Part shown: positions 25,183 through 62,294 of the stretch, in pieces
Numbering within the stretch: the stretch's first letter is position 1
Layout of the letters: each line of letters starts with the position of its first letter
Source: Telopea speciosissima
Taxonomy: Eukaryota; Streptophyta; Magnoliopsida; Proteales; Proteaceae
Length of the DNA stretch: 64,000 nucleotides
Direction of reading: 5' to 3'
Assembly (NCBI RefSeq): GCF_018873765.1
Contig: NC_057918.1
Location: 60,886,871 to 60,950,870, forward strand
The notes under the pieces: generated by a model
Told to the model about the DNA's origin: nothing
Seen by the model: only the letters and a program-made list of their open reading frames with translations
The model's database searches: none
Translations under genes and position numbers: made by a program

Positions 25183-25508
25183 GCAAAATCATCAGCCTCT
25201 CTTTCTTACAAACCATCACCTCGATTTTATGAGACATGAAATTGTATGTGATGCTCTTGGACGATTGAGATTTAGATTTGAATAAGGTGTAGTCTATTTA
25301 CATTTATTCATTATTGTAGGAACTCTTTTTTCGATTGAGTTTTTTTATTCTCTTTAAGAGGTTTCTTCTTGATGACAATGTTGTTTTATTCCCTTTAAGA
25401 GGTTTCTTCCTAATGACAATGCCGAAGGAGAGAATCTTCCATAGTGGTTTTCAGTTAGTTTTTGCATCTTGTCCAGGTATGTTTGGATGCTAATTATTAT
25501 AGGGCATG

Positions 25509-25639
25509 AGATCTCTACTTGGTGGTGTTTCCTACATCTTCTCATAGGGCATCGTGAGATGATGCCTCTGCCCCCTAAGTAGATACCCAGGTGTGCTCAC
25601 CCATTGGAGAGTGTAGGAAACACCACCAAGTAGAGATCT
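25509..25639. mobile_element. MITE family 1, copy 1
   Basis: 131 bp with inverted ends of about 28 bp: AGATCTCTACTTGGTGG at the left and CCACCAAGTAGAGATCT at the right, continuing with GTGTTTCCTACA / TGTAGGAAACAC. A second copy lies at 55,732-55,864 in intron 2 of C4H-2. No clear target duplication is visible. Non-coding. Confidence 0.8.
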
Positions 25640-25990
25640 TGTTTCTCATTGAGGAATTTCTCTCTTTATTTCTGATTTTTTGTATTCAATTGGTTAGTTT
25701 TAATCTTTTGAATATTGTAAATGAAGTTGTGCGAAGTATTGGAAAATCATATGGAAGCTAAACAACAAAAAACAAAGGGGCAGATCGTTGTGGTAAAAGA
25801 AAAGAATAAATTCAGAAACTATTATTCAGTTTCAACCCACTCATTTTTCTAGGCAATTGCATTTCTATGTGTTACAGATGTCATCTTCAACTATGGTAAG
25901 AATCCTTGATTTAATTAGAGAGGATAATTATACCTTCCAATTATACAAGATTCTATAATTAACAAAAATAGTTGTAAATGCATTCTCTAA

Positions 25991-26566: not shown

Positions 26567-27180
26567 TTAAGGATATTTTTGGTTGTTTTTTTAGCTTATT
26601 TTATTCACATAGGATTTTGGTAAATCTTTTTGACTTAATAACTTGTGAATGTAAAACATAATTAATACAAACCAATTTTGTAAATCTTTTTGTTATTTAG
26701 TAGATCTTAGCAAGTCCCCCTATATTTTTAGGGAAAGAGAACGTGCTACTTAGTGCGAGGCTTTAGACACAGGGTTACGCAAAATAACCATTGTGCCCTC
26801 AAAGATTTCTACCTTTCTATGAGGACGTTACAGTCATTTCACACGGTCCTATGTCTGGACACGTTTGATCACGTTCTTTTCACCATTTTTCTTTCTCTTA
26901 TACTAAAATTAATGCTGCTAATCTTTTAGCAAAAATAATCTTATATTTGCCCCCAGATTCCCCATCATACATTGTTGCATCACTCTACACTTCCCTCTCT
27001 TTAAAGTCACTATTGTTACTTGTCGTTATCTAATATATTAAATTGTTTTTTTCAACCATGAGGGCTACTCAAATAGAATCCACTCCTCCTGTGAGTCCCA
27101 CAGTGGATTTCATTTGAGTGGCCCCGGAGGACCTTGAATGGTCCTTGTACATGGTCATGATCCGCGCTCGCCATTCACCC
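26563..27180. other. Intergenic sequence upstream of C4H-1
   Basis: No gene seen. A weak inverted pair (AAAGAGAACGTG near 26,742 and CACGTTCTTTT near 26,872) may be another decayed MITE. The distal C4H-1 promoter may extend into this stretch. Confidence 0.4.
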
Positions 27181-27406
27181 ACCTACCCACCCACACCTCC
27201 TTACCTACCCCCGTCTCTCACCTCCAGTCCTTCTCCTAATCCCACCGGACCCTACCGGCAAATTTTAACCCTGTCAACTTCGTCCGCCTTCATCCCATCT
27301 TCCACACCCACACTCTACCAACACCCACACCCACCAAACGTATTCAGTCAAATCTAACGCCCATTCCGGTTACCCCTTTAGTTCACTGTCTCTCAGCGCC
27401 TATAAG
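27181..27406 (+). promoter_or_regulatory. C4H-1 promoter with AC-type MYB sites and TATA box
   Basis: A C/A-rich promoter with two ACCTACC elements (27,181-27,187 and 27,203-27,209), ACCAACA (27,317-27,323) and ACCAAAC (27,333-27,339). These are AC-element or MYB-type sites known from PAL, C4H and 4CL promoters. The TATA box is CCTATAAG (27,399-27,406), 62 bp before the ATG, which implies a short 5' untranslated region. Homology with the C4H-2 copy begins only at about 27,392, so none of these AC sites is shared. Confidence 0.7.
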
Positions 27407-27462: not shown

Positions 27463-30400
27463 ATGGATTTCCATCTCCTAGAGAAAGCTCTCTTAGGCCT
27501 CTTCTGCGCTATCGTTCTCGGCATTAGCATTTCCAAGCTCCGTGGCAAGCGATTCAAACTCCCACCTGGTCCACTCCCGATCCCTGTCTTCGGCAACTGG
27601 CTTCAAGTCGGCGATGACTTAAATCACCGAAACCTGACAGACCTGGCCCGCCGTTTCGGCGACATCTTACTCCTCCGCATGGGCCAACGCAATCTTGTTG
27701 TCGTCTCTTCCCCTGATCTCGCCAAAGATGTCCTCCACACCCAAGGAGTTGAATTCGGTTCAAGAACCCGAAACGTTGTCTTCGATATCTTCACAGGTAA
27801 AGGCCAAGACATGGTTTTCACCGTCTACGGTGAACATTGGCGAAAGATGCGGCGAATCATGACCGTCCCTTTCTTCACCAACAAGGTGGTTCAGCAGTAC
27901 CGATTCGGGTGGGAAGAGGAAGCAGCTCGGGTTGTTGAGGATGTGATGAAGAGCCCAGAAGCATCGACGACTGGGATTGTTCTGAGGAGGCGGTTGCAGC
28001 TTATGATGTACAATAATATGTACCGGATCATGTTTGATAGAAGGTTTGAGAGTGAGAATGATCCCTTATTTATGAAGCTTAAGACTTTGAATGGGGAGAG
28101 AAGTAGGTTGGCTCAAAGCTTTGAATATAACTATGGTGATTTTATCCCCATTTTGAGGCCTTTCTTGAGAGGTTATTTGAAGATCTGTAAGGAGGTTAAG
28201 GAGCGAAGGTTGCAGCTATTTAAGGACCATTTTCTTGAGGAGAGGTAGTAAGTTTTGATTTTTTTTATTTTTTGGAAACCTCAATTCTTGCTTTAATGGG
28301 TTCTCTGTTTTATAATGCTTTCTTTGATGTTTTTTTGTTTTTTTTTTTTGCTCTGACTGAATGAATTGTGGGTTGCAGGAAGCTAGCAAGCACGAAGGCA
28401 ACGGACAACTCAGGGCTCAAGTGCGCCATAGATCACATCCTTGATGCCCAGAAGAAGGGAGAAATCAACGAAGACAATGTCCTTTACATCGTCGAGAACA
28501 TCAATGTTGCCGGTAAGTTGATACTAAAATCCTTTTGGATGTTAAGGAGAGATTTTTTTTTTTTTGGGTAGAAAGGACAGATTTAATGACTTGGGAAAAT
28601 TTCGTATAAATGTACAAAGTGACAAACCAATTTAGCTTTATTTTTTTTTTTTTGGGTTTTTTGAGTTTGAAAAATTAGACGTTAGTTTCAGGAAATCAAT
28701 GACCAAAATGCCTTTATGATCCAAAATTAAAAAGAAAGTGACCAAATTGCCCTCAATTTCTCCAAATCGTTTAGGGGTTGAAACTAAAAATCAAATAAAC
28801 CTCTTTTCTCATTTTTCCCTCTTCTTCGTGGTCCACCCTGCAACCCAACCCCTCCCCTATCCTTGCCTCTTTCCTTCCCTCTATTCTGCTCCAAATTGAA
28901 TGACAGAGAGCTGGTTCTACCCAAAAAGGACGCAACAGAAAAAAAAAAACGAAAGCAATTCAAAGGCTTCTGATGAAGCTGGTAGTGGAAATTTGGGCTT
29001 TCTTAGTTTTGAAGGTTTGGGACTTGATTTGTTAGCCTTAATGCTTTGTCTTTAGGCGAATTTTGGGTTGCAGTTTATTTCGTGAGATTTATTCTGCTAA
29101 TTGCCCTAGTGTTACCTTCACAGTCGACTCAAGAGCCTATTCCGACTTCCTCTTCTTCTTCCTCATTGGCACTTATCACTTGGTGCAACTCATTCACAGT
29201 CCTGCGATGGTTCTTTCCCTTTATATTGGGGTCACCGTGATTGGATACAAGACCCAATCTGCCTGGCTAACAACTCTGATCCTTGCAACAATAGAAGAAG
29301 AGTTCATATGGTCAGGACAGGGTATAGCCGTTGAGAGACACTGAGTTATTGGTCTAAATGCGTGGTAGAAGAGGGAAGGAAGAGTACAGAGGTTTATTTG
29401 ATTTTCAGTTTCAAATTCTAAATGATTTGGGGAAGATGAGAGCAATTTAGTCACTTTACTCTTAATTTTGGTGGGCTTTTATCATTAGGGCATTTTGGTT
29501 ATTAGATTCTTGAGACATCTAATGTTTCAAACTGAAGGACTGGATTAGATTGTTACAAAGTTTGGACAGTAGAGGTGAATTTGAGATTAATAAACTTTCA
29601 GGGGTGCATTTATAAAAATGAGCAATTTGAGGGAGACATTTGAAAAAACACCCTTTGTTATGTTATGGGGTAACAAACAAACCAATTTAGCTGACACGCT
29701 ACTCTTCTCCTTAGTGACCGTCGCAAATTTGAACTTTTCTGCTATAATTGTAGTTTTTTTTTTTGTTTGATGAGATGCCATAATGGTAGTTGGGAATGGC
29801 CGAATGGGTATTGAGTATTCCTCGTGGAGGTTCGGAGTTAGGCAGAGCTAGGGGGTGTCAAAATTGGGGCAAAACCGGGTAAATCGGATCAAACCGGACC
29901 GAATTTAACCGAGGCCATATTGGGTTGGTTTTGGATTGGGTTATTACAGCCTTGAAACTGAATTGAACAATATTGGAAACCAAAAGAACTCGATATCAAA
30001 ACCGGGTCAAAACTTGGACCAAAACTAAAACGAAACCGATATACCTTGATAAGAAACTGATAACAGCCCGAAACTTAGTAAAAAAACAGAAATTTCCCAT
30101 AGTTTTGTATAAATATGTAGGAGAAAAGTTTTCTAAATGGGTAAGGGTGTTAATCGGTTCCGTTTTGATTATTCGTTTTGGTTTTAACTCGATTTAAGTA
30201 ACAAAGTGTAGAAATCAGAATTGAACTGAGAATAGGGGTATATTTTCAAAACTAAAACTGAATCGACTTAATCCGGTTCGGTTTTGATTTTTATTTGGTT
30301 TTGTATTCAACTTCTTAATGTGTTTTAATTTGGTTTCATATTCAGTTTAGGTCTTATTTTAAATGTTTAGGCCAACTTTTTAAAATCATCACCAATAAAA

Positions 30401-42400: not shown

Positions 42401-45290
42401 GGTAAGTGGGACCCACAAATAAAATTTTTTCAACTCAATTAAAATAGTCCAGGCGGTCCAAACCTTGACCCGTACTTCGAGGACATCGAGGAAAAGGATA
42501 AGTAAATAAAATTAGAGGCTAGAACTTACTTTTTCCTTGTCATAGTTTGTCTCCAATGACCCCGAATAGTTTCCTCACAGGCAAACCCATACTGTGGTCA
42601 ATAATTTTGTAACTGGGTTTGACCACCAGTGAGAACAGCTCACCAGCATATGTGGCAGTGGTAACTACATGTCACGGGAAAGAAATAATAATTAATTATG
42701 ATCTGGGGTGCGGGTATAACATCAGATGCATCTGCAACTCATGGCAATTCTGGTGACACTTCACCCTTTGCAATAATTGGAAGCTTGGGCATTGCAACCA
42801 GTAGGGAGACACCTAATGGTACAAGAACCAGGGCAGCTAGCAAGAGTTATGGAGAATGTGAACCAATAGAAAATGCAACTGGTGAAGACACTACTGATGA
42901 TGAATGGGTCTATAAAAGTGAGGATGAGAGAGTTGATGTGAATGATAATAGTGGAAGTGATAGTGAGTATGAAGAAGAAGCTGATGTGCTTGATGTGGAA
43001 GGATAAACAAGTGAGGATAGGGTTATGGATGAGAAGGATGAGTTGTCTGACTATAATCTTGATGAGTCCCATGGATACAAACTTCAAGGTGATGATGGTT
43101 TTGATAAAAGAGAAAGAATAACTTTAGAGGTTGGTTTGGTGTATTATGATGTGAATCATTTCAAAAAATTACTTTATGAATATATGGTTCAAGAGGGTTT
43201 TCAGCTTTTAAAACAAAAAAATGAGAAGTCAAGAGTCACAACAAGATGTGCAGGTAATGGTTGTACTTGAAGAATTCATGCTTCTCCAGATGGTGATGGT
43301 AAGGCATATATGATTAAGACTCTTAACCCACAACATCCATGTGTCAGAGATTAAAAAAAAATCAATGTTTCATACAAGTGGGTTGCTGAGAAACTCTATG
43401 AAGAGCTCAAGGCTGACCTAAGAATGTCAAGAGAAGCCATGTTAGCTATTTTTCTAAAAAGATTTGGACTTCAAGTTTCATACATGAAGCTGTGGAGGGC
43501 ACGCAAGGTTGCCCATGAATGGAATGAAGGTAATCATGTAGAGTCTTATGCAATGTTACCTAGCTATGCAAGGCTGGTTGTGCAAACAAATCCTGGTAGC
43601 ATGTTCATACTTCAATATGAGGACAGACAAGTGGATATGTCAACTAATCCAGTCTTCAAGAGATGTTTTGAATGTTACAAAACATGTAGAGATGGTTTTG
43701 TGAATGGTTGTAGAAAGTTTGTTGAACTTGATGGCTGCCACCTTAAGGGTAGATTTGGAGGGGTGTTGTTATCAGCTATAGCAGTTGATGGGAACAACTC
43801 CATATTCCCACTTGCATTTGGAGTGGTAGAAATTGAAAACAAATCCAGTTGGAGTTTTTTTTTGGATTGTTTGCATGATGCTCTAGGGGATGCAAGTGAT
43901 AACAACACATTGACTTTTATGTCAGAGAACCAGAAGGTATGCCGGCCTGATTTAGTATGTTATAATTATTTTGTGAAAATTTATAAGTTTTGAATTGATA
44001 TAATTTAAGTGGTATTTAATTTCTATGTTGTGCATTTGATTTATATAGGGATTGGCAAAGATTATTGATGAACTCTTCCCGTATTCTAATATTAGATGTT
44101 GCAGTAGACATCTATACCAGAACTTCAAGGCAAAGTTCCCTGGATCTATATTGAGAAGATATTATTGGGCAGTTTCTGAAACATCTACTTTGGTGCTATT
44201 TCAAAAGGCAATGGATACCATTAAATCCATTGACAATGCAGCCTATGAATGGTTGAATAGGAAATCACATACATTATGGTCTAGGCATGCATTTGATTTG
44301 AGATGTAAGAATGATTTTATTACAAACAATCTCACTGAGAGTTTTAACAATTGGGTTGGATCTTTGAAGAGCAAGCCAGTATTGAATTTACTTGACTCCT
44401 TCAGGATGAAGGTGATGGAGAGATTATACAATAGGTACCAAAAGGGTTGCCCATATGAAAGTATAATCACCCCTAAGGTGTTGCACAAAACAGCAACTAT
44501 TAAAGAACAGTCCATACATTGCCATGTCTTTGTATCTTCTCCATATGAATTTGAAGTTGCAGAAAACTTTGTCAAAAAGTTTGTGGTTAATTTGAAAAAG
44601 AGACGTTGTATATGTAGAGTATGGGAGTCTAATGGGGTGCCATGTAAGCATGCAGCTGCAGCAATCTCATACAAGAGAGGGATTGTTGAAGATTACTGTG
44701 ATGAATGTTACAGTAAGCAGAGGTACTTGGTGACATATGAGAATATGATCCATCCCCTCCCAAATATATAAGATTTGAGTAAAGAAGGTCCAGCAGGTGT
44801 TGTGCAGCCTCCAAAACTGAAGAGATTACGATGTAGACCTCATAAGAACAAGAGGAGGGAACCTGATGAGGGAGCTCTTGCAGATTTTAGAAAGAGAAGT
44901 AGGACTGTCAGATGTGATAGTTATAAAGGACTTGGACATAACAAGAGGAGATGTGAGAGAGCTCCAGTCAAGGAGAAGGGGGCATCTTCTTCTACTACTT
45001 CAAGGTCCAAAAAGGTAATTCCCTCAATTATTTTTTTACATTTGTTATATGTAGTATAACTATATTGTAACTTTAATCTTTCATGTAAGCTCATTCTAAC
45101 TTTATTTTTGTTTTATTTTTATGAAACAGAAGAAAAGAAATGAGTAAGAAGATGAGGTGCGCATGTCACAGATTGTAACTAGATCACAAGCTTCTACTAC
45201 TGCTACAACTGAGACTCCACAAGACAGGATTATATCCCAATTGGCAGCTAAATGGGCAAAAAGAAAAACAAACAACAAAAAGTAGCTGAG
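39442..45290 (+). pseudogene. mudrA-like MULE transposase (broken)
   Basis: Parts in order: N-terminal domain (GCLDMISDIYNTVLKEVPMGHLVNFK, then NDDYTMYKMFSLCKKY) 39,442-40,060; acidic linker 42,727-43,005; MuDR DNA-binding region (EVGLVYYDVNHFKKLLYEY) 43,025-43,270; MULE core (VELDGCHLKGRFGG with first catalytic Asp; FPLAFGVVEIENKSSW) 43,424-43,936; intron 43,937-44,048; C-terminal part 44,049-45,015 with CCSRHLYQNF and the SWIM finger CICRVWESNGVPCKHAAA; then a basic tail with CDSYKGLGHNKRRC. Damage: solo LTR insertion after 40,074, a phase change in the GA run just before it, stops near 39,570, 43,268 and 43,353, and the second catalytic Asp replaced by Glu (SENQK, usual SDRQK). It would cut and rejoin the MULE ends; now inactive. 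Confidence 0.85.
40075..42721 (-). repeat. Solo LTR inserted in the MULE transposase
   Basis: 2,647 bp starting TGTCACGCCCCC and ending GGTATAACA on the plus strand (complement TGTTATACCCGCACC...GGGGGCGTGACA), with the perfect 5-bp target duplication TCAGA (40,070-40,074 and 42,722-42,726). No gag, pol, primer site or second LTR, hence a solo LTR left by recombination. A CTATAAATAAG box on the minus strand (complement of about 42,222-42,232) suggests the orientation. It includes a long CTT/TTCC pyrimidine tract (42,068-42,160). Confidence 0.9.
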
Positions 45291-47316: not shown

Positions 47317-48276
47317 TTTTTGAACATAGGGGTGGGATTGAAAGCTATTTTGCTAAATGAGCATATGGTATTACACTATGAGTATGAAATGAAAAAAGAA
47401 GAAGCAATTACCCTTCGTCGGAGATGGAGATGTTTGGAGGTGACTGTCGTTGGAGATGCTTGAAGGTTGTTGTCACTGGATAAGCTTGGAGGTGGGTGGA
47501 AATGAAAGCCCTAATCGATTTTAGAGATGATGAAAAGGGTAGAATTGGAAATGCCATTTCAATTTGTTAGTAAAGGGTAAAATAGTCTTTTCAAATCATT
47601 AACTAACAGCACCCTAACACCATCAGCAATAAGGGGTCAAAATGTAAGGTGGGAAAACCAAGGGGAGGAACGTGTAATTAGGCCGAAGTATAGGGGAGGG
47701 GTATGTAATATTCAAACCATAACCAGTTGCCTCTAAGCTGTAGGGGAAGGATTGAACAAGGGTGCGACTGGGTGGGGGAAAGGAGCCGTGGAGTTGTAGG
47801 CGAGGGTGGGATGGAGGCAAGAAGCTGTAGGGGGAGGGTAGAGAGGAGAGGGAAAGGAGAGGGAAAAGGAAGCTGCAGCCGCAATCAGTGAGGAAGGGGA
47901 GTGGGAGTGGGAGAGGGAGAGCCAAAGGTGGAAGGAGAGGGAGCCGGAGAGGGAAAAGAAGAGGAGAAGGTGGGAAGAGGGAGATGGAGAGAGGTGAAAG
48001 TTCAAAAAAACCATCCATAAAAAAAACTTAGTGACAAAACCATTAAAGGTAAAAATGAAAATAAAATAAGATTAACCCTTTAGATTTTATGTAAATGTTG
48101 AAATTATGGGAGGTGTTATGTTATTATTTCAAACACCAGGGATGCATATAATTTGCTCTTACATGTCTCTGCCACAGAGAATGGATCATTGCACGTACAT
48201 AACTAGTGTACGGGGAGTGTACGGGGACAAAATGGTTTGAAAATATTTTTAAATAATATTAACGGGAGGATGTTCC

Positions 48277-48386
48277 CTGTGCCGCAGCACAGGCTGCGCC
48301 CAAACACATGGGCCTGTCACTCAAGCGGGTAGGGTGCTCATTAGGCCCACCCATGTGCCTGGGCATAGCCCTGCGCTGCGGCACAG
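48277..48386. mobile_element. MITE (hairpin type) in the C4H-2 upstream region
   Basis: 110 bp folding on itself almost completely: CTGTGCCGCAGC.CAGG at the left pairs with CCTGCGCTGCGGCACAG at the right, and CACATGGGCCT with AGGCCCACCCATGTG. It ends 54 bp before the TATA box of C4H-2 and is absent from C4H-1. Confidence 0.75.
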
Positions 48387-48446
48387 ACAACAGCCCCCCC
48401 ACTATTTATTTAAGGAAAAGGTTGGGTATGCTTAGTGCCTATAAAA
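48387..48446 (+). promoter_or_regulatory. C4H-2 core promoter
   Basis: TATA box TATAAAA at 48,440-48,446, 62 bp before the ATG, the same spacing as C4H-1. Homology with C4H-1 starts only at about 48,431. Upstream lie the hairpin MITE and MULE sequence; no ACCTACC, ACCAACC or ACCAAAC element was seen between 47,717 and 48,440. Confidence 0.6.
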
Positions 48447-48501: not shown

Positions 48502-51500
48502 ATGGATTTCCATCTCCTGGAGAAAGCCCTCTTAGGCCTCTTCTGCGCTATCGTTCTCGCCATTAGCATTTCTAAGCTCAGTGGCAAGCGATTCAAACTC
48601 CCCCCTGGTCCACTCCCGATTCCTGTCTTCGGCAACTGGCTTCAAGTCGGCGATGACTTAAACCACCGAAACCTGACAGAACTGGCCCGCCGATTCGGCG
48701 ACATCTTACTCCTCCGCATGGGCCAACGTAACCTCGTTGTCGTCTCTTCCCCTGATCTCGCCAAAGATGTCCTCCACACCCAAGGAGTTGAATTCGGTTC
48801 AAGAACCCGAAACGTTGTCTTCGATATCTTCACAGGTAAAGGCCAAGACATGGTTTTCACCGTCTACGGTGAACATTGGCGAAAGATGCGGCGAATCATG
48901 ACCGTCCCTTTCTTCACCAACAAGGTGGTTCAGCAGTACCGATTTGGGTGGGAAGAGGAAGCAGCTAAGGTCGTTGAGGATGTGATGAAGAACCCAGAGG
49001 CATCGACGACTGGGATTGTTTTGAGAAGGCGGTTGCAGCTTATGATGTACAACAATATGTACCGGATCATGTTTGATAGAAGGTTTGAGAGTGAGAATGA
49101 TCCCTTGTTTATAAAACTTAAGACTTTGAATGGGGAGAGAAGTAGGTTGTCTCAGAGCTTTGAGTATAATTATGGTGATTTTATCCCCATTTTGAGGCCT
49201 TTCTTGAGAGGTTATTTGAAGATCTGTAAGGAGGTTAAGGACCGAAGGTTGCAGCTTTTTAAGGACCATTTTCTTGAGGAGAGGAAGTACGTTTTGATTT
49301 TTTTTTTTTTGGAAACCTCAATTCTTTTCTTTAATGGGTTCTCTGTTTTATGATGCTTTCTTTGATTTATTTATTTATTTTTTTGGTTTTTTGAATGAAT
49401 TGTGGGTTGCAGGAAGCTAGCAAGCACGAAGGCAACGGACAACGCAGGGCTCAAGTGCGCCATGGATCACATCCTTGATGCCCAGAAGAAGGGAGAAATC
49501 AACGAAGATAACGTCCTTTACATCGTCGAGAACATCAATGTTGCCGGTAAGTTAATACTGAAACCCTTTCGAATGTTAAAAAGGAGAGATTTTAGCTCAC
49601 AGACACGTAGACGCGCGACCACTATTTTAGAACTAATGACCCGGTAAAATTTCGTATAAATGGACAAACCAATTTAGTGACTGTCGCAAATTGGAACTCT
49701 TCTGCCGTAATTGTCGTTGGGTATGGATATCCATTTCGGATTTTTCTCCTCTCAGGTACTTCTAAGTAAGTACCCACCTGTCCATTTATAGTTCAACGGT
49801 CAAAAGTAAAAACACTTTAAAACCCAACCCGATCAAAAGTAAAGACACTTTAAAACCCAATCCAACCCATGATTTGTCCAACTTAACCCAACCCAATCTT
49901 CATCTCCCCTCTCTCTCTCTGGCAACTCTCGGAGACGGCAACCAATGTGGTGGCGACCCAACCCTCCTCTCTCTCTACCGGAGTGTTCCAGCGACGGCAA
50001 CTCTAAGAGGCTGCAACCTCTCTGCACAAAGGAGCTCTGGTTCGCCATCACCAGGAGTTCGCCATTAAAGAATAGTGGGAGCTGGTTCGCCATTACAGCC
50101 AGAGAGGAGGCCTTAAAGCTTAAAATCTCTCTGTGGCAACTCGTCAAACACCCTTCTTGCAAAATCAACATATCCAACCATTTATAAGAGAGTTAAGAAC
50201 AAAACCATCTGAAAAGAATCCAAGCACTAGAACCTGACCCTGAAGACCCAATAAAACCTCTACGTTTCCCACATCAGTACACGTCTTGGAAAAAAATGAC
50301 CAGGTGATTCCATTGCACCACTCTACAACATTTCTTTATACAAAGAAATACAGATACTTGGGTTGCTTGTTCTTGAATGAGCTCTAATCATGGCGTTCCA
50401 AGTGAACGTGTTGGGCATCCTCATTTGATAGAACACATGGCGAAAGTAGTGGAGATTGACTGAATTCAAAAGGATAATAGTTTCTAATAGTTTGGTTGAT
50501 GCCACATGGTCTTCCCATAGGCTAATTCTGTAAATCTGAGAGTGAATTTTCTTTAGTTCGGTCATGCGTCTGCAAGAATCGAGTAGAGGAAGACATGGGT
50601 TCTTAAGAATTAGTTTTCAGACTATTGGTTTACTGAAATCAAAAGGTTAAGAGGTTGGGTTTCTACTCATCATGGATTTCAGGATACCTGAGGTTTCATG
50701 TTTGATTGAAACTTGAGACAGGAGCAACCGCGATGAGAGAAATGGGCGTTTCGGGGTTTTCTTTTTTTCCGGTTCCCCCTCCCTTTGATTTGCGTAACCC
50801 GTAAGCTTCTCATTTTGGGCATCCTCTCCGGCAACGGCCAAGAAAGTGAGAAACAGATAAGAGGCAACTGCTGCTGGGCCATAGGCAGCGAGAGAGGAGG
50901 GTTGGGTCACCGCGGCGATGGTTGCCGTCTCCGAGAGTTACGAGAGAGAGGAGAGAGAGGAGAGAAATGAGAGTTGGGTTTTAAACGGATTAAAATCCTC
51001 TGGAGTACCTGCGGCGCGGCAGTGCACATCCGACGGCACACACATGGCCTCTGCTGTGCGTCGGATGTGCACTGCTGCCCCGCCGGTACCGCAGAAGATC
51101 CTGGTCCGTTTGAAACCATAGTTAGGGTTGGTTGGGTTGGGTTGGGTTGGATACACCATGGGCTGGGTTGGGTTTTAAAGTGTCTTCACTTTTGACCGTT
51201 GGATTATAAATGGACAGGTGTCACATTTATAAGGGGGTACTTATAAAAACTTACAGATGAGGAAACTTGAGAGGAGAAAAATCCAAGTAGTCCTCGTGGA
51301 GGTTTGGAGTTAGGTAGAGGTGTAGAGCTAGAGGTGTCAAAATTGGGGCAGAATCGAGTAAATCGGCTTACCGAATTGAACTTAACCGAGGCCATATTGG
51401 GTTGGTTTCGGATTGGGGTATTACGACTTTGAAACTAAATTGAACAATATTGGAAACCAAAAGAAATCGACATCAAAACCGGTTCAAAACTAAAACGAAA

Positions 51501-54500
51501 CCGATCTACCTTGATAAGAAACCATTAACAGCCCGAAACTCAGTAAAAAAAATCAGATTTTCCTATAGCTTTGTATAAATATGTAGGAAAAAAATTCCCT
51601 GCATGGGACTAAGGGTATCAATTGGCTCGGTTTTAGTTATTCAGTTCGGTTTCAACTCGGTTTAAGAAACGAAGTGTAGAAACCAAAATTGAACCGAATC
51701 GTGAATAGAAATACACTTTCAAAACCAAAACCGAATTGACTCGATTCGGTTCGATTTCATTTTTTTTTTGGTTTTGTATTCAGCTTCTTAGTGAATTTTA
51801 ATTTAGTTTCATATTCGGTTTAGATCTTATTTCAAGTGTTTGGGTCAACTTTTTTACATTTTCACCAATAAAAAAAACCCTTATTTTTTAGGATCATAGT
51901 CCACCAAACACTAAAATGGAAAAAAATTATCATCCACATTTGATTAAAAAAAGTTTAAAAAAAATTTAATTGTATATGGTTCTTTATTCGGGTTGAAAAT
52001 AGGTAATTCAATTCGGTTTAACGGTTTTTACATGAAATCAAAACGAACTGAACATAGAAATATTTCAGCTTTGGAAACCAAAACCGAATCGATTTACTTC
52101 GGTTCGATTCAGTTCAGTTTTAAATGACCAGTTTCGGTTTTGGTTCTAAATTAACACCCTTATATGGGATGCAGGGGCCACGCTCAGACACATTGGGGGC
52201 GGAAATAACCACCCCGTCCCCAAGAATGGTGGAATTTTCGTCTCCCAATGTGCCAATGTGTGAGCTGTCATTGGCTGTTGGACGCGCATGGCTCGTGCGC
52301 TCCCATGCAGAGAACAGTTCCCCAAATATGTATGTTAAAGCGGACCCAAATTAAGACTGAAATCAAAACCATTAATAGACTGATACAAGAAATCGATACG
52401 AAGTTAAAATCAAACCAATATGGAAGTCGCATTTTCTATGTTGACTTGGTTTCAGATTCACCATTCCCAAAACAAAACGGGCTAAAGCCGAATTGAAATC
52501 GCCCAAACCGATTGATTGACACCGGCAGTTGGCACCCAACGTATTTCTGTACAATTTTGGTGAGTGGACTCATTAATCAATAAATATCCATGAAAGAACA
52601 AAAGTTACCGATCGGTCCAGGTGTAATGGTCTGACCCAAAATCCTTTTGTCACAACAATTTTTTTTTTTGTCAAAAAGACAGAAATTTTGACAATAGTCC
52701 ACCAAACACTAAAATGGAAAAAAATTATCATCCACATTTGATTAAAAAGAGTTAAAGGGAATATAATTTTATATGGTTCTTGCATGAAATCAAAACGAGT
52801 CGAACATAGAAAATATTTCAACTTTAGAAACCAAAAGCGAATTGATTTACTTTGGTTCGAATCAATTCAGTTTTAAACAGCTCGTTTCGGTTTTGGTTCT
52901 AAATTGACACCCTTGCATGGGACGCAGGGGCCACGCCCAGATACATTGGGGGTGGAAATGACCACCCCATCCCTAAGAATGGTGGAATTTTCATCTCCCA
53001 ATGTGTCAATGCGCGAGCTCTCATTGGCTGTTGGACGCGCATGGTTCCTGTGCTCCCATGCAAAAAACAGTTCCCCAAATATGTATGTTAAAGCGGACCC
53101 AAATTGGGACCGAAATCGAAACCATAATTGACAGATACAAGAAACCGATACGAACTTAAAACCAAATCAATATGGAAACCGCACTTTCTATATTGATTTG
53201 GTTTCAGATTCACCATTCCCACAATAAAACGGGCTCAAGCCAAATTGAAATTGGCCCAAACCCACAGATTGACACCAGCAGTTGGCGCCCAACGTATTTT
53301 TGCACAATTTTGGTGGGTGGACTCATTCATCAATAAATATCCATGAAAGAACAAAAATTACCGATCGATTCACGTATAACGGTCTGACCCAAAATCCTTT
53401 TGTCACCTAATTTTTTTTTTGGGTAATTTACACATACCACCCCTGAGGTTTGACGAAAGTATGATTTTACCCGCCCCCCCCCCCCCATTTTGGAAAATTC
53501 TGCGTACCCCCCTGAAGTTTACAAACATTAACAAATACACTCATTCCGTCAGTTCATGACTAACAGTATTAAAAACATCAGGTGAAATGACAAAATTGCC
53601 CTTGCAAAGAAAAAAAAACCTGCAACTCAGTAATTTACTCTGATGGTGACATCGCCGGTGGACATCGGAAGACCTACCTTCATTCAACATCATATTCGCT
53701 CACCTTCTTGTTACCAACACCAAGACTGATAGCCGCTAGAACCTGATCCTTTCCTTCTTTTGCTTCTTTGCCTTTCCCCACTCTATCGAAATTGTTGGCA
53801 AGGAGAGGGCAATTGGCAAGGGCATCCCAGAACTCCGAAGGCTCTTTGCCCTCATCGATGTTCACAATGGGTCCTTGAGCTCCCTCGTAACGCACGACTT
53901 GAGACGCAGCAACGCTGGCCTGATTCAACATTACCTGAGTACAATTCTTCCCGACCCAGATGTAAATCACCGAAGGTATATGAATGATGAAAGCCCCACG
54001 AGATTCGAGGCCGAGTGCGCTCGGATGATTCAACATTTTGGGAACCAAGTGGAGGGAATCGTAGGAAGAGTGGGGGCCATCCGGTACATCCGAAGCACGA
54101 GTTAGGGGTGGTGCACTGCGTGAACCCTCTTCCGCACTGCAAGAACGGCAGCGAAGCCCATGTTTGGGTTTGTACGTGATCCCGCGAGCAGCCTTCACAA
54201 ACTGGAACGCATCCTCAAAGCTCTGGCCATCCCTCCACATAAGGTAGGCGATGACCAAGGAGGTGGAGCGGGAGACCCCCCCTGGCAGAGGTGAACGAGA
54301 ACACGCCCTCCCTGCTCGCGTACATCTTTGAAATAATCGAAAACATCGTAGAGGATACTGGTGATGTCCTCGGAGGGGCTGTCTTGCAGCCACAAGGTCT
54401 TGTAGATGAGATCGTTCTTGAAATACTCGGGAGACACTCCACCTATCGGTGACACTCCCTCTGCAAGTTTGTCTTCCAACGTAGTTGTTGATGCTGTACA

Positions 54501-56778
54501 GATATGGGTTCCCTCCCTCTGCAATCTTTAACCTCCACATCTTCTCTTCTCTTCTCTTCTCTTCTCTTAAAGATGTCGTCAGAACCTTATATGATCATAC
54601 CAAAACAAAATAATAATTCATAGGAGAGAGAGAGTAAATGCAGGAAGGAAGGAAAACTATAGTAAGTATGGAGACAAGTATAGTTTAATAAGATGTTCAA
54701 GAATGAAGCAGTTTCGGCCCTACAGTGGGTGACTTCTTATTATTTGGTGAGATGGGAGGAGTGAAGAGCAGGAGAGGTGATTTTTAAGGGCTCCTCTACT
54801 GCCGAGCTGCCCGGTAGGATCGTGCTGCCCAGACACAGTACTGTGCGCAATGTCCACCTTACCCCTGCCCAAATGCCTTACCCGAGTGGGGTAAGGCGGT
54901 CTTTGCACACAACACCGTGTCTGGGCAGCACGGTCTTGCCGGGCAGCTCGGCAGTAGAGGATCCAAATTGCTAAAATGTGTGATGTAACAAACTATAGAC
55001 CTGGGAGTAGGTGGATGGGGCCAATGACGGAGGTCATCGGAGCTAGGCCTGGGCCACTCTTCTACGGGACAGCGAGAGATGGAAAGGGGTTGCAGGGGAG
55101 GAAGGGAAGCCTGAGCCTTATTGCTGAAAGGTTGTGATTGTTTGGGGTTGGAACTAGGATTAGACCAGGAAGAAGGAGACCACCGGTCAGACCATGAAAT
55201 AGAACAAAGGTAGGTCTTCCGATGTCCACCGGCGACATCACCATCATTCCCTTGCTCTGAGTCAATGAGTAAATTACTGAGTTTTAGGATAACTGCAACT
55301 CATCTTCCCCAATCGATTTGGGGAAGATGAGTTGCAGGTTTTTTTTTCTATGCAAGGGCAATTTTATCATTTCACCCCATGTTTTTAATACTGTTAGTCG
55401 TGAACTAACGGAATGGGTGTATTTGTTAATGTTTGTAAACCTCAGGGGGGTATGCAGAATTTTCCAAAACTGGGGGGTAAAATCATACTTTCGTCAAACC
55501 TCAGGGGTGGTATGTGTAAATTACCCTTTTTTTTTTTTTGGTCAATAGCAAAACTTTTATTAAAAGAAATCGATTGCAGAGAAACTCTGGCCGGCTGAAA
55601 AATGTGAACTTGTTTGTTGCCACAACACTTCGAGTAGATGTGAAATTGTTTGTTGCCACCAATTTCTTCCACGTGGTTGTTGTTCTTGAATCTTGACCAT
55701 GGATCATTTGACAATTTATTTAAGGGAAAGCGATCTCTACTTGGTGGTGTTTCCTACACCCTCACACAAGGCATCGTGAGATGATGTCTCTGTCTCTAAG
55801 TAGATACCCAAGGGTGCTCACCAATTGGAGAGTGTAAAAAACACCACCATGTAGCTAGAGATCTTTTTCCTAATAATTATTTATTTATTTTTGTATGGTA
55901 CTGTCATTTACGTGGTAAGCCGGTGATGATGAAATGTCACCAACCATCATTTTTAGGTTTAAAAGAAGATAGGAAAAAAGAACTCTGTCCGAGAGTGTGG
56001 TCTACGCCAACACTCCCATGAGTCTATCTCTCTCCTCCTTAAAACAAAGGGGCAGAACTGTCTTTTCATATGTGGAGGAGAGAGATAGACTCATGCAAGT
56101 GCTGGCGTAGACCACACTCCCGGACAGAAAACTAGTATATATAAGTTTTGAGTAATGTATTTTATGTTGGTTGATGCAGCCATTGAGACTACGTTGTGGT
56201 CTATCGAGTGGGGGATAGCGGAACTGGTGAACCACCCCGAGATCCAACAGAAAATCCGAAACGAAATCGACATAGTTCTCGGACCCGGTCTACAAGTGAC
56301 CGAACCCGACATCCAGAAGCTTCCCTACCTTCAAGCTGTGGTCAAGGAGACCCTGCGACTCCGCATGGCGATCCCATTGCTGGTTCCGCATATGAACCTA
56401 CATGATGCCAAGCTCGGTGGCTACGAAATTCCCGCTGAGAGCAAGATCCTTGTCAATGCATGGTGGCTTGCCAATAACCCGGCCCACTGGAAGAGCCCGG
56501 ATCAGTTCCGACCCGAGAGGTTCCTGGAAGAGGATGCCAAGGTCGAGGCCAACGGCAACGATTTCCGGTACCTACCATTCGGGGTTGGCCGGAGGAGCTG
56601 CCCCGGAATTATTCTGGCCCTGCCCATCATTGGAATCACCTTGGGCCGTTTGGTCCAGAACTTTGAGCTCTTGCCCCCACCGGGTCAGTCTAAGCTTGAC
56701 ATATCCGAGAAGGGAGGGCAGTTCAGCTTACAAATATTAAAGCACTCCACCATTGTTGCACAGCCAAGGGTGTTTTGA
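48502..56778 (+). CDS. C4H: trans-cinnamate 4-hydroxylase copy 2 (CYP73A)
   Basis: P450 CYP73A, hydroxylating cinnamate to 4-coumarate with the help of P450 reductase at the endoplasmic reticulum. Exons 48,502-49,286, 49,413-49,546 and 56,180-56,778 add up to 1,518 nt, exactly 505 residues, the family length. Introns obey GT-AG (GTACGT at 49,287; GTAAGT at 49,547; GATGCAG before 56,180). Features: membrane anchor (residues about 5-20), hinge [14 protein letters not shown]-helix AAIETT (306-311), KETLRLR, FRPERF and haem loop [10 protein letters not shown] with Cys about 447. No internal stop. Intron 2 is 6,633 bp, over twice that of C4H-1, through a local duplication, a Pack-MULE and MITEs. 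The distal promoter differs wholly from C4H-1. Confidence 0.96.
51895..53408. repeat. Local tandem duplication in intron 2 of C4H-2
   Basis: Unit 1 (about 51,895-52,655) and unit 2 (about 52,693-53,408) share CCACCAAACACTAAAATGG, the GGGGCCACGC segment and the end CTGACCCAAAATCCTTTTG. C4H-1 has this region once (about 30,420-31,352). Unit 2 lacks about 45 bp of unit 1, and the right end of unit 2 abuts the Pack-MULE. Confidence 0.8.
53684..55205 (-). pseudogene. Captured MAP kinase phosphatase 1 (MKP1) fragment
   Basis: Read leftwards from 55,205: N-terminal region ([11 protein letters not shown] near 55,100-55,070; WPHPPTPRS near 55,010), a MITE, a dual-specificity phosphatase domain ([40 protein letters not shown], then [32 protein letters not shown]) and a gelsolin-like domain ([47 protein letters not shown]). 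Plant MKP1 dephosphorylates stress MAP kinases. Here the active-site motif HCxxGxSR reads HLCQGG then a frameshift: the catalytic Cys is Leu. Part of the domain between the N-terminus and PEYFK is degenerate. Being bounded exactly by the MULE repeats, it is a captured fragment, not an active gene. Confidence 0.87.
54789..54964. mobile_element. MITE inside the Pack-MULE
   Basis: 176 bp with long inverted ends: GGCTCCTCTACTGCCGAGCT against AGCTCGGCAGTAGAGGATCC, and CGTGCTGCCCAGACAC against GTGTCTGGGCAGCACG. The inner part also pairs (CCTTACCC / GGGTAAGG). It interrupts the MKP1 fragment, so it came after the capture or was carried along. Confidence 0.8.
55301..55346. repeat. Palindrome in the right Pack-MULE terminal repeat
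   Basis: CTGCAACTCATCTTCCCCAA, a short centre, then its complement ending GATGAGTTGCAG. The left terminal repeat lacks this insert (53,627-53,640 reads CTGCAACTCAGTAATTTACT), so it is a secondary change in one arm. Confidence 0.75.
55732..55864. mobile_element. MITE family 1, copy 2, in intron 2 of C4H-2
   Basis: Homologue of 25,509-25,639 along its full length (GATCTCTACTTGGTGGTGTT, GGCATCGTGAGATGATG, TAAGTAGATACCCA, then AACACCACCA.GTAG...AGAGATC). The right end is more decayed. Absent at the matching place in C4H-1 (about 31,450). Confidence 0.8.
55984..56128. mobile_element. MITE next to the exon 3 acceptor of C4H-2
   Basis: 145 bp with 50-55-bp inverted arms (TCTGTCCGAGAGTGTGGTCT / AGACCACACTCCCGGACAGA in complement order, and GAGTCTATCTCTCTCCTCC / GGAGGAGAGAGATAGACTC). 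It ends 51 bp before the exon 3 start at 56,180. Absent from C4H-1. The transcript could form a stable hairpin here. Confidence 0.82.
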
Positions 56779-60976: not shown

Positions 60977-61621
60977 TTACTCCACTGAGAACTCAAACAA
61001 CATGGTATGTTTGTACTTCTCAGTTGGTTGAATAACAACAGATGGAAAGTTTGGTTGGTTAATAGCATTAGGGAATCCCTGCGTCTCCAAACAAAGCCCT
61101 GAGTGCTTTCCATAAACTGCTCCACTTTTACCAACAACACCATTAACATAGTTCCCAGTATAAAACTGCACACCAGGGGCATCAGTCCATAAGTTCAGAA
61201 CCCTTGAGCTTGAGGAATCTTTCACTTTAGCAGCATGTTTCAAGCCTGATTTCTCTTCACCACAGTCGAGCACATAATTGTGATCATAACCCAAGCCAGG
61301 AACCTCATGGATCGAGGCACCAAACTTCTTTTCTGTTGTGAAATCAAAGGGGGTACCTTTAACAAGAATGATTTCACCTGTGGGGATTGTGTTCTCATCA
61401 ACAGGGGTAATGTGATTTGCCCAAATCTGAACCACATGCTCAAGAACATTCCCAGAGCTGTGACCAGCCAAATTGCAGTAGGTATACTGAGCTAAGTTAA
61501 TTGGAGTAGCCTTGTTCTTGGGCACAGCTTCCATTTCAAGCTTCATTGTTGATGGGTTTTTCCCTTCTTTACGGTCAACTATGTCCCACACCACCTTATC
61601 GAACCCCTTGTTCCCACCTGA
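60977..61621 (-). pseudogene. Aldose 1-epimerase (galactose mutarotase) 3' fragment
   Basis: After an acceptor-like CTATTCAG, the frame from 61,621 reads GGNKGFDKVVWDIVDRKEGK and runs open to the stop at 60,977-60,979 (LFEFSVE). Family motifs: KATPINLAQYTYCNLAGH, VDENTIPTG, GTPFDF, YDHNYVLDCG (catalytic Asp), GVQFYTGNY, CLETQGFPNAINQPNFPS (catalytic Glu). Mutarotases interconvert alpha and beta sugar anomers. Problems: about 28 residues after KNPS are missing; the catalytic His of the usual QH.YWNLAGH is Tyr here (QYTYCNLAGH); and no upstream exons with the LHGG region were found to the right. It looks like a relic or captured 3' end, though a long intron cannot be excluded. Confidence 0.8.
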
Positions 61622-62294
61622 ATAGACGAATAAAAGAGATTAAATACAGACAGTGGCAAATACAACTTGAGAACAGAGTTCCTCAAAAAGTTTTAATGCA
61701 TTGTTTATAACAAACAACATGAGCAAAATGTAATTCTGACACTACTTTGCTAAGCATGGAAGGAGATTCTAGCTTAATTTTATATACAAACAATAAAGTA
61801 GGAACATACCTTGTATTCAAATGGAGTATCCACCCTTTCCATCCCCCCCCCCCCTCCTTTTTTTCCATCTTCAACTTTCACCCATTTAACCATACAACTA
61901 GAAGGCATCTCATAGTTCATGCATCATTCATAGGAATTCTGGATTCTCATGATGAAACCAGGTTGCAAAATTATATCAAGATAAGAATTTACGAAAGAGC
62001 TAGATCTAGCTGAGTTTTTCAACCATTAGATCACCCCATCGATTATAGCCTTGTAGGGAATCAAAGCAATAGTTCTTTTTTTCCATGGTTTTTTATTTTT
62101 TATTTTTTTTTTATTATTTTTTTTTATGTCTCCCATTCTTGTTTCTTGCGATAAATGTCTATGATAAGCATGCTTAGTAATATTGCAATGGGACCCCTCT
62201 AACGAGACGATTTAAGATGGGGTTATGTTTGGGGCTTTAATTTGTTATGATAGTGCTCATATGAAGAATACAAAGTGAACATTTGTTATATACA
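61622..62294. other. Spacer between the epimerase fragment and the Harbinger element
   Basis: No exon of the epimerase found. Contains a run of 12 C (61,843-61,854) and a T-rich run (62,078-62,125). The latter part may be the 5' region of the Harbinger element. Confidence 0.4.

Follow-up and report, generated by a model that had tools for sequence, protein, structure and literature searches.

The window, a stretch of 64,000 nucleotides from Telopea speciosissima, the New South Wales waratah, at 60886871-60950870 of contig C3, contains a tandem pair of cinnamate 4-hydroxylase (C4H) genes, C4H-1 and C4H-2. A search of the 823-Mb genome with C4H-2 gives six exon-sized matches of at least 89% identity, the next match being at 33%, and places three C4H genes in the genome, the tandem pair on C3 and one further copy on C8, to which the public protein P0006 corresponds. 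All three Telopea copies consist of three exons with the intron positions the same, and C4H-1 and C4H-2 are 96% identical over residues 1-263. The features of the pair are as follows, a slash within a donor marking the exon end:

27170..27406, plus strand: upstream region of C4H-1 with AC-type elements and a TATA box at 27401, of the kind common to the C8 copy
27463..28247, plus strand: exon 1 of C4H-1 with the inherited donor, ending AGG TA (28244 is the end with the upstream donor); joined and translated
28246..28246, plus strand: derived A>T, codon 262 to an intron-split TAG and also the new GT of the upstream donor
28245..28250, plus strand: new upstream donor GAG/GTAGTA ("i donor"), AG//GU class by sequence; open frame, 504 aa
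28248..28253, plus strand: inherited donor GTA/GTAAGT ("e donor"), //GURAG class by sequence; TAG at the join; GTAAGT also in the C8 copy
28379..28512, plus strand: exon 2 of C4H-1; joined and translated
28389..28390, plus strand: AG acceptor 12 nt downstream, a second in-frame escape; with the inherited donor, a Tyr join and 501 aa
31592..32190, plus strand: exon 3 of C4H-1, open to TGA; remainder of the P450 domain
48253..48431, plus strand: dispersed repeat adjoining the homology break, directly upstream of the C4H-2 TATA box
48502..56778, plus strand: C4H-2, open frame, exons 48502-49286, 49413-49546 and 56180-56778; identical to P0003

In C4H-1, a CYP73A gene, the end of exon 1 reads GAG AGG TA/GTAAGT (28240-28253) and exon 2 starts with GAAGCTAG. 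Joining 28247 to 28379 gives a coding sequence of 1518 nt in which a TAG forms codon 262 across the junction of exons 1 and 2, exactly as the initial annotation had read it; this is the sole internal stop and there is no frameshift, in keeping with its statement that the rest of the gene is open. Joining 28244 to 28379 gives 1515 nt that are open throughout and encode 504 aa, with ERKLAS where C4H-2 has ERKKLAS, and the product one Lys shorter that had been proposed for a donor 3 nt upstream, at 28245, is thereby confirmed in frame. The corresponding exon ends are AGGAA/GTAAGT in the C8 copy and, as had been stated earlier, AGGAA/GTACGT in C4H-2. Since both paralogues read A (codon AAG), the T at 28246 is derived in C4H-1; likewise, since the C8 copy has GTAAGT, this donor is ancestral and the +4 C of GTACGT is derived in C4H-2. 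The A>T at 28246 is the sole derived change of C4H-1 at this junction, and this single base makes both the stop and the candidate bypass: the resulting GTAGTA at 28245-28250 is a GTNGTN arrangement, with two GT donors 3 nt apart at the exon end.

A scan of GT-AG pairs with donors at 28150-28375 and acceptors at 28301-28440 yields 14 open combinations near the junction. Eleven of them give 462-492 aa, and the least costly are 28245/28379 (504 aa), 28248/28391 (501 aa) and 28245/28391 (500 aa). The upstream donor does provide the escape that was first proposed, with an open product of 504 aa, but it is not the only one, the pair 28248/28391 being another. When the inherited donor is used with the normal acceptor, the TAG sits 133 nt before the next exon junction. 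Nonsense-mediated decay (NMD) follows a rule of 50-55 nt, and an mRNA spliced in this way is therefore an NMD candidate. Readthrough of the stop, in its context TAG AAG, is presumably minor.

The 504-aa product scores 391.7 bits against the Pfam p450 model (cut-off 22.8) over residues 34-495, is 93-95% identical to the Telopea and Macadamia C4Hs P0003, P0005, P0006 and P0007, and has the sorghum C4H 6VBY as its best PDB match (E 2.1e-267); domain and identity together point to a cinnamate 4-hydroxylase of the CYP73A family. Like the trans-cinnamate 4-monooxygenases of this family (sorghum 6VBY, Macadamia P0005 and P0007), C4H-1 has a full-length P450 domain; unlike in them, K262 becomes a stop or is deleted, depending on the donor. 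The residue is kept in 115 of the 117 full-length C4Hs among the matches listed (120 listed proteins minus P0001, P0002 and P0037, which lie outside 490-560 aa), the exceptions being one E and one gap. This near-invariance agrees with the T at 28246 being derived, and it counts against a leaky allele with a Lys-less product. The Lys missing from the 504-aa form belongs, however, to a variable stretch after "FxEER": an indel relative to P0003 occurs within residues 257-279 in 14 of these 117 C4Hs among the matches listed, the Escallonia protein P0034 has one extra residue at the place of K262, and where the 504-aa product is aligned with 6VBY, a gap of three residues opens soon after ERK. The enzyme may plausibly tolerate the loss of the Lys. 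The one gap at K262 is that of P0055 from Salvia plebeia, which reads ERKLVS; both Lys residues are retained in the four other proteins of this genus in the set. The shorter protein could stem from a similar donor shift or simply from a deletion of AAG.

Regarding the two donors, the initial annotation took GTAAGT to be the better one, a ranking that the pairing with U1 does not support. Paired in register, the upstream donor of C4H-1 reaches -6.4 kcal/mol and the inherited donor -5.1 kcal/mol, and with 11 nt of U1 the values are -7.1 and -5.3 kcal/mol, so that both are of similar strength under a scoring that ignores the pseudouridines of the U1 5′ end and uses no species donor matrix. The upstream donor has no +5G, which the inherited GTAAGT possesses, and pairs better with U1 because its exonic AG offsets the poor intronic side. 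The same A>T has also removed the -2 A of the inherited donor, which may tilt the choice further to the upstream site. The exon 1 donor of C4H-2, GAA/GTACGT at 49284-49292, ranks far below the donors of the other two copies through its derived +4 C, with -0.9 kcal/mol in register (-1.9 in free pairing with 9 nt of U1) compared to -11.6 for the consensus.

The two donors also fall into different splice-site classes. AG//GU sites are associated with loop 1 of U5 and //GURAG sites with the ACAGA box of U6 (Parker et al. 2022, PMC9803359; review PMC11732430), and by sequence the C4H-1 donors are one of each, the upstream one AG//GU and the inherited one //GURAG. According to the cited part of the review, where alternative donors are annotated in Arabidopsis and human, the two members of a pair tend to come from different classes, and fio1 mutants move toward sites with a stronger match in the upstream exon (PMC11732430). 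The shifts given for fio1 in Arabidopsis in the sections cited are of -4, +4 and +5 nt (PMC9803359, PMC11732430), whereas the shift in C4H-1 is of 3 nt and decides between a stop and an open frame.

Tandem donors of this type have been surveyed in human and Arabidopsis, and the figures below are those in the cited sections of that survey (Hiller 2006, PMC1779574). As in the GTNGTN tandems described there, the C4H-1 donors are 3 nt apart, of the GTRGTR form and close in U1 energy, and produce an in-frame indel of 3 nt; unlike them, the C4H-1 tandem is newly made by one derived base, is present in one of three paralogues and is known from DNA alone. GTRGTR accounts for 70 of the 81 confirmed human GTNGTNs, a preference that is weaker in Arabidopsis, for which 36 tandems are confirmed. 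In human GTNGTNs, lower U1 energy marks the major donor in 15 of the 17 i-major and 56 of the 64 e-major cases; read the other way round, and on the premise that no ties occur, 23 tandems have their lower energy at the upstream donor, and in 15 of them this donor is also the major one. Stop codons are involved in the indels of four human tandems, two of which are NMD candidates. Several figures of the same survey argue against regular use of both donors in a leaky allele: human GYNGYNs are confirmed as alternative in only 110 of 8550 cases, 2% for GTNGTN; the annotated donor is the downstream one in 59 of the 81 confirmed human GTNGTNs; and of nine unconfirmed GTNGTNs with low energy at both donors, none proved to be alternatively spliced (PMC1779574).

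The history of the two copies is informative about the condition of C4H-1. The coding sequences differ at 61 of 1518 sites with a dN/dS of 0.174, and polarization with the C8 copy resolves 22 of the 1518 sites to C4H-1. The machine count with this outgroup assigns 5 nonsynonymous (the stop included) and 17 synonymous changes to C4H-1, 16 and 13 to C4H-2, and leaves 4 and 6 unresolved, the residue counts beside it being taken over 93 proteins of 505 aa. Without the stop, the C8-only count becomes 4/17 against 16/13 (Fisher P = 0.018), with sites 315 and 351 going to C4H-2. When amino-acid changes are polarized by the C8 copy together with the Macadamia proteins P0005 and P0007, C4H-1 receives 5 (stop excluded) and C4H-2 16, two being ambiguous. 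Compared to the synonymous counts of 17 and 13, the contrast gives Fisher P = 0.025 for 5 versus 16 and 0.013 for 5 versus 18, but is marginal, with P = 0.094, when both ambiguous sites are assigned to C4H-1 (7 versus 16). Protein branch lengths are 0.014 for C4H-1 and 0.041 for C4H-2. In the tree built from 18 protein rows, a split with support of 89/92, under the star threshold, separates P0007, Protea P0121 and the C3 pair from the C8 copy, P0005 and the other plants; P0121 is a long branch.

Even if all the changes of C4H-1 are assigned to it, a neutral phase could not exceed 0.18-0.31 of the branch, these being the 95% bounds obtained from 5 and 7 changes with N:S of 3.47 or 2.5. Few nonsynonymous changes and a short neutral phase therefore mean that constraint acted on C4H-1 during most of its existence and that, of the two copies, it has changed less. 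In terms of what usually marks a pseudogene, selection is not seen to be relaxed, at 5-7 nonsynonymous (stop excluded) versus 17 synonymous changes; no further disabling lesion accompanies the one internal stop in the 1518-nt join; and the frame is not broken in every plausible transcript, as the upstream donor keeps it open. The initial annotation had left a splicing-dependent gene and a very young pseudogene as the alternatives. These were the right ones, and the youth of any lesion is supported both by the otherwise intact coding sequence and by the bound on the neutral phase, but the ranking of GTAAGT as the better donor is not. The constraint on C4H-1, though, describes the past and says little on the time since the A>T. 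Within exon 1, positions 27697-27905 and their C4H-2 counterpart form a run of 209 identical nucleotides, of which 22 are different between C4H-1 and the C8 copy. Such a run has P = 0.004 versus random placing with third positions weighted 4x, and suggests gene conversion.

Two aspects were overlooked in the initial annotation, namely that C4H-1 has the promoter type common to the C8 copy and that it has fewer changes than C4H-2. The AC-type motif ACC[TA]ACC occurs twice in the 400 nt upstream of C4H-1, twice in those upstream of the C8 copy, and nowhere in the 400 nt upstream of C4H-2. Homology between the tandem copies ends at 27392/48431, just upstream of the TATA box, and on the C4H-2 side adjoins the dispersed repeat, where most of at least 70 matches to a 632-nt query fall (40 of 2207 candidates scored). 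When 25.0-33.5 kb of the window was compared with 34-64 kb, the C4H-1 upstream region at 26.6-27.39 kb had no counterpart there, and further upstream there are a 219-nt match (25435-25649) and short repeats. Thus the stop-bearing C4H-1 keeps the C8-type promoter, whereas it is missing from the open-frame C4H-2, whose donor is also the weakest among the three copies. Given the kept AC-rich promoter and the few amino-acid changes, C4H-1 does not look long dead, and since it both holds the C8-type promoter and is less changed, the simple death of a spare copy becomes less likely.

Several other features occur in the window. A dispersed repeat of about 110 nt lies upstream of the C4H-1 promoter at 27061-27170, with 45 of at least 46 matches in or around it (40 of 166 candidates scored). 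Between the two genes, transposase reading frames are found at 43355-44771, the first of two matching Pfam MULE at 37.8 bits. Intron 2 of C4H-2 contains an element at 53421-55526 with terminal inverted repeats (55 nt at 98%, 150 nt at 93%) and, on the reverse strand, a piece of a dual-specificity-phosphatase/gelsolin-type gene (DSPc 29 bits, below the cut-off; gelsolin 25, above it), which we take to be MKP1-like. The element has 22 genomic matches including itself, the best other being 93% identical over about 916 nt on C10, and looks like a gene fragment caught by a transposon. Finally, an aldose 1-epimerase reading frame (Pfam 143.2 bits) is present at 60977-61639 on the minus strand.

How rarely a stop carries its own bypass can be counted. 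If the outgroup base is placed at 28246, C4H-1 can acquire a stop by 176 different single-base changes, of which only 2 also generate, within 12 nt, an in-frame donor that would bypass it, and a third could make use of an AG already present; for C4H-2 the equivalents are two and one among 178. On inspection of the two self-bypassing changes in C4H-1, an AG precedes the new GT only in the observed one. Codon 261 being AGG, any A>T after it writes AG/GT, so that the coincidence of stop and bypass is structural. A random stop would therefore rarely fall at this spot, although the argument is weakened by the selection of the case, the scan picking odd ones, and takes mutation rates as equal.

Taken together, we give roughly even odds to C4H-1 being a recent leaky nonsense allele, from which some mRNA would be spliced to a Lys-less enzyme while the rest is predicted to decay. 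In such an allele the A>T at 28246 would turn the Lys262 codon into TAG and at the same time write AG/GT 3 bases upstream of the inherited donor. Splicing at the upstream donor would excise exactly the stop and leave a 504-aa P450 minus one Lys, splicing at the inherited donor would leave the stop 133 nt before the next junction and lead to the predicted decay, and the amount of enzyme would be lowered to a level set by the ratio of the two donors. We infer the use of both donors, the decay of the stop form and the activity of the Lys-less enzyme.

The most serious competitor, in our estimate somewhat unlikely, is that C4H-1 is a very young pseudogene or null allele in which the inherited GTAAGT is used nearly always, the transcripts decay and the new GT is a useless by-product. 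GTAAGT is after all the ancestral donor with +5G, still present in the C8 copy; the genome has two other C4H copies; and in the cited sections of the survey the downstream donor dominates most human GTNGTNs, with most tandems unconfirmed as alternative (PMC1779574). In addition, no C4H-1 protein, full-length or truncated, is found among the best 120 of 2481 (7990 candidates scored) and 120 of 349 public matches listed, while the C4H-2 and C8 proteins are near the top of the best 120 of 2481 and the 90% cluster of P0003 has one member. This speaks to some degree against the upstream donor being strongly supported by transcripts, as an RNA-supported donor would be expected to yield an annotated protein, and is the main reason for our limited confidence in a leaky allele. 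On the other hand, a dead gene would have to have received one of the two self-bypassing changes among 176, a point which the picking of odd cases weakens; U1 pairing favours the upstream donor; the neutral share of the branch is at most 0.18-0.31 with no further lesion; and the tandem copy that would remain, C4H-2, is without the promoter type common to the other two.

As sources of the T at 28246, an error in assembly or consensus and a rare or heterozygous variant captured in a collapsed assembly are together improbable. The T is a single base in one assembly, with no second haplotype contig to compare, as the junction region matches only three places in the genome. Neither a retrocopy nor a second haplotype spanning the junction is among these matches. 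Mixing of paralogues is ruled out as the source of a T, because A is the base in C4H-2 as well as in the C8 copy; genuine lineage changes are common in C4H-1 (22 of 1518 sites with the C8 outgroup); and of random errors that make a stop, only about 1% would strike a self-bypassing site (2/176). Escape on the acceptor side, from the inherited donor to exon 2 at 28391 with Tyr replacing KKLAS in a protein of 501 aa, is in frame and open but highly improbable, because its AG is exonic, lying 12 nt beyond the normal acceptor and lacking a pyrimidine tract, because splicing usually takes the first AG, and because the nearly invariant L264 and S266 (each kept in 112 of 117 C4Hs among the matches listed) would be deleted.

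A leaky allele of this type would have a parallel in the CFTR variant E831X, likewise a single-base nonsense change whose UAG is removable by 3-nt tandem splicing, there at a NAGNAG acceptor; the cited part of that report describes the outcome as mild to asymptomatic and mentions a protein isoform that is functional (Hinzpeter et al. 2010, PMC2951375). The two differ in that E831X is on the acceptor side and is a human disease allele whose bypass was shown in patient RNA, whereas C4H-1 is a donor-side case in a plant paralogue, known from DNA. Among 18 Arabidopsis accessions, most genes predicted to be disrupted were restored by re-annotation, as stated in the section cited (PMC3521719), and plant nonsense calls are therefore often softened by altered gene structure. 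Among the papers listed on tandem donors, compensated nonsense and bypass we found no report of a self-bypassing stop on the donor side in plants, which is not proof of absence. The class of mechanism is already known, and C4H-1 is a candidate for a new plant example, in which the "broken" copy would be the more conserved one.

More speculatively, and with considerable doubt, C4H-1 may represent a general class of self-bypassing nonsense, in which an intron-split codon of the form xxG NA/G, when changed to TAG, also writes the GT donor that deletes it. Such a stop could persist under purifying selection and act as a dimmer set by U5/U6 donor choice and decay, here tuning C4H, an early hydroxylase, possibly in response to U6 m6A (FIO1). 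The model makes the countable prediction that nonsense variants should be over-represented at split codons following a G. If both donors are used, the junction would report naturally and in binary form, stop or enzyme, on how AG//GU and //GURAG sites compete within 3 nt in a plant. It also calls for caution, as automated annotation may label such genes dead. For the waratah itself, the finding bears on which C4H copy feeds lignin and flavonoids, because the copy with the stop is the tandem member that has kept the AC-element promoter.
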